A DNA stretch of 64,000 nt, from positions 124,001 to 188,000 of the forward strand of contig JADHOC010000002.1 in assembly GCA_016779205.1 (NCBI GenBank), given 5' to 3'. Both the position numbers and the translations under genes were made by a program. This stretch comes from Planctomycetota bacterium (GTDB lineage Bacteria > Planctomycetota > UBA1135 > GCA-002686595). Below, piece after piece: positions 28,723 through 30,051 of the stretch; positions within the stretch are counted from its first letter, which is position 1, and the number at the start of each line of letters is the position of its first letter. Below the pieces are notes generated by a model. It did no database searches. It was not told where the DNA came from and worked only from the letters and a program-made list of their open reading frames with translations.

Positions 28723-30051
28723 ATGCTCATCACGTCCCTCCTCGTTGCGGTGCTCCAGCAGGGGCCGCCGGCTCAGGCGCTGCCTGCAGAGGCCACCCCC
28801 GCGTCCCAGGCCGACGCTCCCCTGCTGCGCCGCGTCGACCTCGAGGACTGGCGCGCGCACCTGCTGCCTGGCGCGGCGGATCTGCGCTTCGCTCAGATCG
28901 CCTGGGAGCCGACCTTCATGGACGGGGTGCGCCGGGCGAGCGAGGAGGAGCGGCCGCTCCTGCTCTGGCTGATGAACGGGCACCCGCTCGGGTGCACATG
29001 AGGCAATGGCCTGGCGGACCGGAGGTCCGTCTTCACCGAGGAGGTCGTCGAGCGGGCGGCCCGCTTCACCTGCGCGGCGGACGAGGTCTGGCGCCTCCAG
29101 CGGGGTTCTGACGACGACTGCGTCCTGTTCCAGCGCTGGAGCAACGGCGGCAAGCGCATCACCGACGGCGGGACACGGCAGGGCTTCTGGGTCTTCGCCC
29201 CGGGGGGCAAGGTGCTCGGGCGCATCAACTCCCGGTCGCCGGAGCGGGTGGGCGCCATGCTCGACGCGGCCCTGGAGCGCTGGGGAGACCTGGCGGAGGA
29301 GGAGCGGCGGCTGGACCCCGAGGCCGATCGCGCCCCCGCTCACCGCTGGGAGGACGGCTTCCCGGAGGGCGGCCTCGTGCTCTCCAGGATCTCCCGCGAC
29401 CTCTCCCCCGAGGGGCTCAGCGCGAGCCCCTCGAACCGCTGGAACCGGGACACCCTGTGGTGCTCGAAGGGGGAGGTGAAGGCCATGCTGCCCGAGCTGT
29501 CGGAGGTCATCCTCGGACCGGCAGGGCCGGAGGGCATCGACCTTCAGCCGCTGGCGGACCGGTTGGCGCAGTTCGCCCTGGTGGACGACGCTCGCGGGCA
29601 GACCCTCCCCTACGCCCCGGCGGAGATCGAGCGCGCGCGGCTGGTCGGGCGCGTGGTGGAGGTGAACGGGCCGAAGGTGAGGGTCGAGCTCACCGGGAGC
29701 ACCAAGGCGAGTGCGGCGGACACCTGGCTCCTGGGGGACAACAACTGGACCCCCAGGCGGAGGATCCCCCACGGCGTGGAGTGCGAGCTGCTCGGCACGG
29801 CCACCCTGGACCTCGAGGACCGCTCGTTCGAGGCGTTCGAGCTCGTGGCCGTCGGGACCCGGTGGGGCCGGACGACCTTCAATGGCCGGGGCAAGGACCT
29901 CGGCCCGAGCCCGATCGGCTTCCACCTCACCCTGACCGCCGACCGCGTGGCGCCCACCTTCGCGTCGCTCTACGGTGTGGACTGGATCCCCCGGCCCGAG
30001 GTCCCCACCTGGCGAGATTCACCCGCGGAGTCGGGATTGGAGCGGCGCTGA
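28723..30051 (+). CDS. putative selenoprotein, thioredoxin-like domain, in-frame UGA at codon 93
   Basis: Read through the TGA at 28999-29001, the frame stays open for 442 residues. The N-terminal signal peptide (LLVAVLQQGPPAQA) leads into RPLLLWLMNGHPLGCT-U-GNGLADR, a thioredoxin-like setting with Cys91 two residues before the UGA-encoded position 93. Downstream are FTCAADEVW, FWVFAPGGKVLGRI (fold-completing strands) and a separate C-terminal domain (about 255-430). Protein-like sequence on both sides, no ATG or GTG restart for 200 bases after the UGA, and a hairpin with a GG-starting loop at the right distance all point to selenocysteine. Alternatives are a nonsense mutation or read error. 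UGA is a normal stop elsewhere in the window, so recoding must be local. The selA/selB/selC genes are not in view. Confidence 0.72.
29007..29038 (+). promoter_or_regulatory. SECIS-like hairpin just downstream of the in-frame UGA
   Basis: Upper stem of eight pairs (29013-29020 with 29024-29031, one G-U) closed by a GGA loop at 29021-29023; a short lower stem (29007-29009 with 29036-29038) lies across internal loops. The apical loop begins 20 bases after the UGA and starts with two Gs, which fits the published bacterial SECIS pattern of a loop 16-37 bases downstream with an early G. Confidence 0.6.

Follow-up and report, generated by a model that had tools for sequence, protein, structure and literature searches.

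The DNA analysed here, a stretch of 64,000 nucleotides referred to below as the window, carries on its plus strand a gene (28723..30051) that very probably encodes a real selenoprotein of 442 residues with selenocysteine (Sec) at position 93, a reading that rests on sequence and lacks biochemical proof of Sec insertion. A single frame runs from the ATG at 28723 to the TGA at 30049-30051 and spans an internal TGA at 28999..29001 (plus strand), which we read as the UGA for Sec93 as it is conserved in relatives and a stop stands at the same position in the aligned loci. The codon of Cys91, a possible resolving residue, lies two codons upstream (28993..28995, plus strand). Standard translation stops the protein at residue 92. 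The preliminary description had reported the in-frame TGA, the unbroken frame and the cysteine two residues before, and all of these held; its selenocysteine reading is supported by the results given below, with direct protein-level proof of Sec still lacking. Its statement that no start codon near the break would allow separate translation of the second half had to be corrected: from the GTG at 29212, in the same frame, 279 aa could be translated, and this product would omit residues 94-163, which are conserved among relatives.

The same triplet terminates both the 28723-30051 gene and its upstream neighbour, so TGA still functions as a stop in the window's genome, and a changed genetic code was ruled out on these grounds. 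The G+C content of the selenoprotein gene is 73%, at which long open frames come cheaply, and most of the gene is also covered by a 452-aa frame on the opposite strand; the open frame alone is therefore weak evidence, and it is homology that carries the weight of the case for readthrough. The TGA is kept in all four close-relative loci (79-97% identity; one of them, L012, is truncated at residue 360), which were found in one scan of genome contigs of many phyla with six exact 8-residue patterns, a search that could reach close relatives only. Among aligned Planctomycetota loci, a stop occupies query position 93 in 30 of 30, the window's own gene included. Residues 94-190, downstream of the UGA, are under purifying selection, with dN/dS of 0.09-0.11 against L010, L011 and L012 and no nonsynonymous change at all against L009. 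Some family matches show what could be another recoded stop, TAG or TAA. Of these, only L022 and L029 were inspected individually; their extra stop stands at query position 427, close to the end, and was read as the normal terminator.

A SECIS-like hairpin with an 8-bp stem and the loop GGA was located at 29013..29031 (plus strand), 12-30 nt downstream of the UGA and with a UGA-to-loop spacing of 19 nt. It fits the bacterial SECIS model in section 5 of PMC13188914, which asks for G in the first two positions of a loop that measures 3-9 nt, a stem of 4-16 bp, a spacing of 16-37 nt and an energy of -7.5 or lower. The energy of the window's hairpin alone is not unusual (z -0.53 and -0.99) and the family average lies just slightly on the low side (mean z -0.37, 69 sequences); as stem energy is weak evidence for a SECIS element, we used model fit and covariation instead. 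The model was met by 49 of 67 distinct family sequences against 20.1 expected (minimum-energy folds, synonymous resampling; z 8.1, not to be taken as a probability since the 67 sequences are related). The third-position pair 17/29 was the strongest of 81 pairs with 21 sequences, of 70 with 14 and of 91 with all 67, and its two positions pair in 52/67 sequences where 34.6 were expected. Its states G-C, C-G and U-A cluster by clade; the covariation counts sequences and not events, such that as few as two double changes may underlie it. Some family sequences fold in another register or fail the model, and a search of the window with Rfam found nothing. On model fit and covariation, with energy adding little, it is likely that a SECIS hairpin meeting the published model stands just after the UGA.

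The genome from which the window comes encodes tRNA-Sec (70.5 bits), SelA, SelB and SelD, each above cut-off. Its SelD (L198, G000:C23:108916-109860, minus strand) has an in-frame TGA of its own, with Sec in CAGU, and two further frames, L196 (G000:C10:6111-6374) and L197 (G000:C26:88412-88663), are likely selenoproteins of the Thioredoxin_7 type with UxxC motifs (LUSQC and WUSWC). Across 392 Planctomycetota genomes, tRNA-Sec was found in 93 of the 99 with the family and in 157 of the 293 without it, an odds ratio of 13.4 uncorrected for relatedness. Six family genomes yielded no tRNA-Sec. Three of them (G097, G174 and G296) contributed rows with Ser or Pro at the column; in the other three (G102, G214 and G280) the matches contain TGA, and the assemblies are 67-87% complete. 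Of the latter three, only the G214 match (L084) is aligned at the Sec column.

The protein begins with a hydrophobic stretch, MLITSLLVAVLQ (28723..28782, plus strand; mean hydropathy 2.23), a probable export signal, and the N-terminal hydropathy reaches 2.0 or more in 57/68 rows with Sec. Export is thus likely, as inferred from this stretch and without a signal-peptide predictor. Residues 45-192 (28855..29298, plus strand) very likely form a thioredoxin-like domain: the N-terminal profile compared with a Thioredoxin_7 profile gave an hhalign probability of 98.5 (98.2 on a rerun), against 0.1 for the reversed control and at most 3.9 for 25 column shuffles. For the Thioredoxin_7 profile, 28 stretches from related genomes were used, and this was a single pairwise comparison and not a database search; no usable structure backs it, as the two AlphaFold models (pLDDT 38 and 47) were too poor to use. 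This alignment sets Sec93 against the first Cys of CxxC, Gly96 against the second and Gln153 (29179..29181, plus strand) against the cis-proline, and the GHPLG of the selenoprotein falls in a gap of the template. From about residue 200 to 425 (29320..29997, plus strand) extends a family-specific C-terminal domain with conserved columns and no Pfam match, which showed no similarity to the Thioredoxin_7 profile (probability 0.4). Domain libraries returned little. The window protein had only two sub-cut-off matches in Pfam, with no Thioredoxin_7 match at E 1, and no match in NCBIfam at E 1. Among 38 members, Pfam gave Thioredoxin_7 in 2 (best E 0.0064) and DUF255 in 2 (E 0.036), NCBIfam gave NF041383 (VPGUxxT) in 1 (E 0.035), and NF041199, the Trx7/PDZ selenoprotein, matched none up to E 0.1. 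Profile searching also gave weak hits on AGR2 and DUF255 chains (E 1.3-1.9).

At an E cut-off of 1e-3, the window protein has matches in 99 of 392 Planctomycetota genomes, one of which is its own, and a 38-row profile finds matches in 117/392 at 1e-5; the weak profile matches that we re-inspected (21 in 15 genomes) are remote thioredoxin-like proteins with Cys, Sec or another residue at the column. No relatives turned up in viral contigs by protein or by motif search, and plasmids held no match. For the alignment, 60 further stretches were fetched and the profile was iterated; rows of at least 60 bits were kept and duplicates removed, which left 80 rows. The raw counts at the Sec column were U 68, S 6, D 2, P 1, V 1 and gap 2. 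The row with V (L092) has Sec one place earlier and was counted as Sec, and L067 (D) and the two gap rows, fragments without the site, were dropped, such that the 77 rows covering the site comprise 69 Sec, 6 Ser, 1 Asp, 1 Pro and no Cys. These counts cover fetched and aligned matches only, and family matches that were not fetched stand outside them. Cys at the Sec column is thus absent from 77 family rows, all of them Planctomycetota, and was seen solely in remote relatives (L175, L180 and L186), so the no-Cys claim is limited to Planctomycetota rows of the family proper. The same three relatives make a Cys thioredoxin the likely ancestor of the family. In a tree of 74 rows, Sec requires 4 changes and the rows without it are nested, from which we infer that Sec is likely ancestral within the family; the tree is midpoint-rooted, some of its forks are weak, and the fork from which the long branch of the Pro row arises is unresolved.

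Several members are joined to other domains. In L058 (5210-9886, minus strand) a frame of 1559 residues fuses a protein kinase domain and Kelch repeats to a member that follows them, and the same contig stretch holds a second family copy of the Asp type. Divergent members share one frame with a Metal_resist domain in L092 (3409-5334, minus strand) and with a FecR domain in L065 (3059-5035, plus strand).

Certain residues follow Sec closely. The 68 Sec rows keep Met84 in 63, His87 in 63, Cys91 in 59, Asn95 in 64 and Gln153 in 64, whereas the 8 non-Sec rows keep them in 0, 5, 0, 5 and 0, respectively. Trp61 and Arg100 are retained in nearly all rows of both kinds, and Gly stands at +3 from Sec in 65/68 Sec rows. 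Three of the 8 non-Sec rows have a small insertion before the site, and the columns there are less certain. From this coupling we infer that Met84, Cys91 and Gln153 likely belong to the Sec active site. Most other points of the preliminary description fared well. The check it had proposed on homologues came out favourably in that relatives have UGA at the column, with Cys there in no aligned family member, and so did its check for sel genes, tRNA-Sec, selA, selB and selD all being present. The thioredoxin-like domain it had named is supported by the profile comparison, and the secreted or periplasmic location by the hydrophobic N-terminal stretch tested in the Sec members, export itself remaining an inference. 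Its suggestion of perhaps a new family is supported in that the window protein is assigned to no family of Pfam or NCBIfam, and its C-x-U arrangement held in part, being common (59/68 Sec rows) and not universal.

We consider it likely (about 0.85) that the gene encodes a Sec-dependent, thioredoxin-like redox protein, with neither detection of Sec nor an assay to prove it. The inferred function is that of an exported Sec-dependent peroxidase or thiol oxidoreductase. Peroxidase-type chemistry in particular, proposed by analogy with glutathione peroxidases and without an assay, has no better than an even chance of being right; it is our first guess, with disulfide exchange and metal binding next. 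In the proposed mechanism, SelB and tRNA-Sec, directed by the hairpin 12-30 nt past the UGA, would insert Sec at residue 93. Gln153 and Asn95 would stabilise the Sec93 selenolate, which would attack peroxide or another oxidised substrate; Cys91 would then form a Cys91-Sec93 selenenylsulfide, to be reduced by an extracytoplasmic thiol donor. Cys91 is absent in 9/68 Sec rows, which counts against this reading; in members without it an external thiol would have to take over. In a survey of 60 loci, based on crude gene calls, we recognised no conserved neighbour that would encode a reductase or a substrate, and beyond the family itself similar frames recurred as a cluster in 7 loci at most. The radical SAM gene upstream has a counterpart, 25% identical, near the member in L045, a resemblance that we provisionally ascribe to chance.

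The closest competitor is an enzyme that isomerises or reduces disulfides in exported proteins, the redox pair being Cys91-Sec93. It remains possible, and the thioredoxin-like domain, the presence of Cys91 in 59/68 Sec rows, the probable export and the weak AGR2 and DUF255 hits (E 1.3-1.9) all suit it; however, the second Cys of CxxC is Gly (65/68 at +3), the cis-proline is Gln, and 9/68 Sec rows lack Cys91. In another reading, Met84, His87, Cys91 and Sec93 of MNGHPLGCTU would bind copper, mercury or silver in an extracytoplasmic scavenger or sensor. In its favour, Met84 and Cys91 track Sec (63/68 and 59/68 Sec rows, none of the 8 others), His87 is kept in 63/68, and the divergent member L092 is fused to a Metal_resist domain. 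Yet Gln153, which is not a soft-metal ligand, is equally coupled to Sec, the thioredoxin-like register places Sec at the catalytic position, and L092 is without the MNGHPLGC stretch, such that we regard this reading as unlikely.

A pseudogene, an assembly error or two genes separated by a normal stop could also be imagined, as GTG 29212 might begin a second product and long frames arise readily by chance at 73% G+C. Against this stand the same TGA in many genomes, the dN/dS of 0.09-0.11 immediately downstream, the Sec machinery in the genome and the constrained RNA after the TGA, and these explanations are all but excluded.

The redox selenoprotein that we favour appears to belong to a family not yet described. 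None of the 119 families in Table 1 of PMC13188914 was seen to combine its motif and domain, and the relevant passages of PMC5330540, PMC9312934 and PMC4807772 name no such family. This is likely and not certain, as mostly open-access literature was searched and the supplementary table of PMC4807772 (two planctomycetes) may list a member. Cys homologues are usual in nearly all bacterial selenoprotein families without being defining (PMC13188914); all known selenoproteins now seem to have them, according to a 2025 study whose method may miss those without (PMC12013277), and PMC2398784 worked from Sec/Cys pairs. The family seems to be an exception to this rule, with the reservations that remote relatives have Cys and that the profile was run on Planctomycetota only. 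A bolder reading, on which we would not come down on either side, is that of a widespread Sec-dependent family without Cys counterparts, its reaction being impossible with Cys; on loss of Sec (four changes in the tree) the Met84, Cys91 and Gln153 site would decay to Ser, Asp and Pro forms and not to Cys. If this is true, here is a bacterial selenoprotein family lacking Cys counterparts, and methods that use Sec/Cys pairs have a blind spot in which such a family could be overlooked. Why certain proteins retain costly selenium although Cys usually suffices is an open question; efficiency alone cannot fully explain it (PMC13188914), and this family (99/392 genomes, no Cys rows aligned) offers a clean test case.

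With the Thioredoxin_7 and DUF255-type thioredoxins (PF13899, PF03190) the family shares the profile over residues 45-192 and the active-site column, but its motif is UxNG and not CxxC, Gln replaces the cis-proline, and it has an inserted GHPLGCT loop and an extra C-terminal domain; having neither CxxC nor the cis-proline and falling below the Pfam cut-off, it does not meet the criteria of PF13899. Glutathione peroxidases possess a peroxidase tetrad in which conserved Gln and Asn accompany Sec, on a thioredoxin-like fold; the likeness is an analogy only, PF00255 matching none of 38 family members up to E 0.1. Sec.1 of Brachyspira (PF13192) has a CxU motif and a thioredoxin domain, as the family does (PMC13188914, PMC5330540); unlike the family, its Sec lies in an extension before that domain and Cys homologues exist (PMC5330540), and PF13192 found no match in the 38 members up to E 0.1. 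A set of small thioredoxin-like CU-motif proteins of Planctomycetota (L176, L178, L179, L184, L193 and L195) shares the Sec column and a conserved downstream Arg; they are remote (E 2e-10 to 7e-5), align in the N-terminal region only, lack HPLGCT and, unlike the family, have Cys forms (L175, L180 and L186). L176 and L178 are of the GHCUATATQ form, and L193 holds two such TGA-containing stretches. These six may represent further selenoprotein families.
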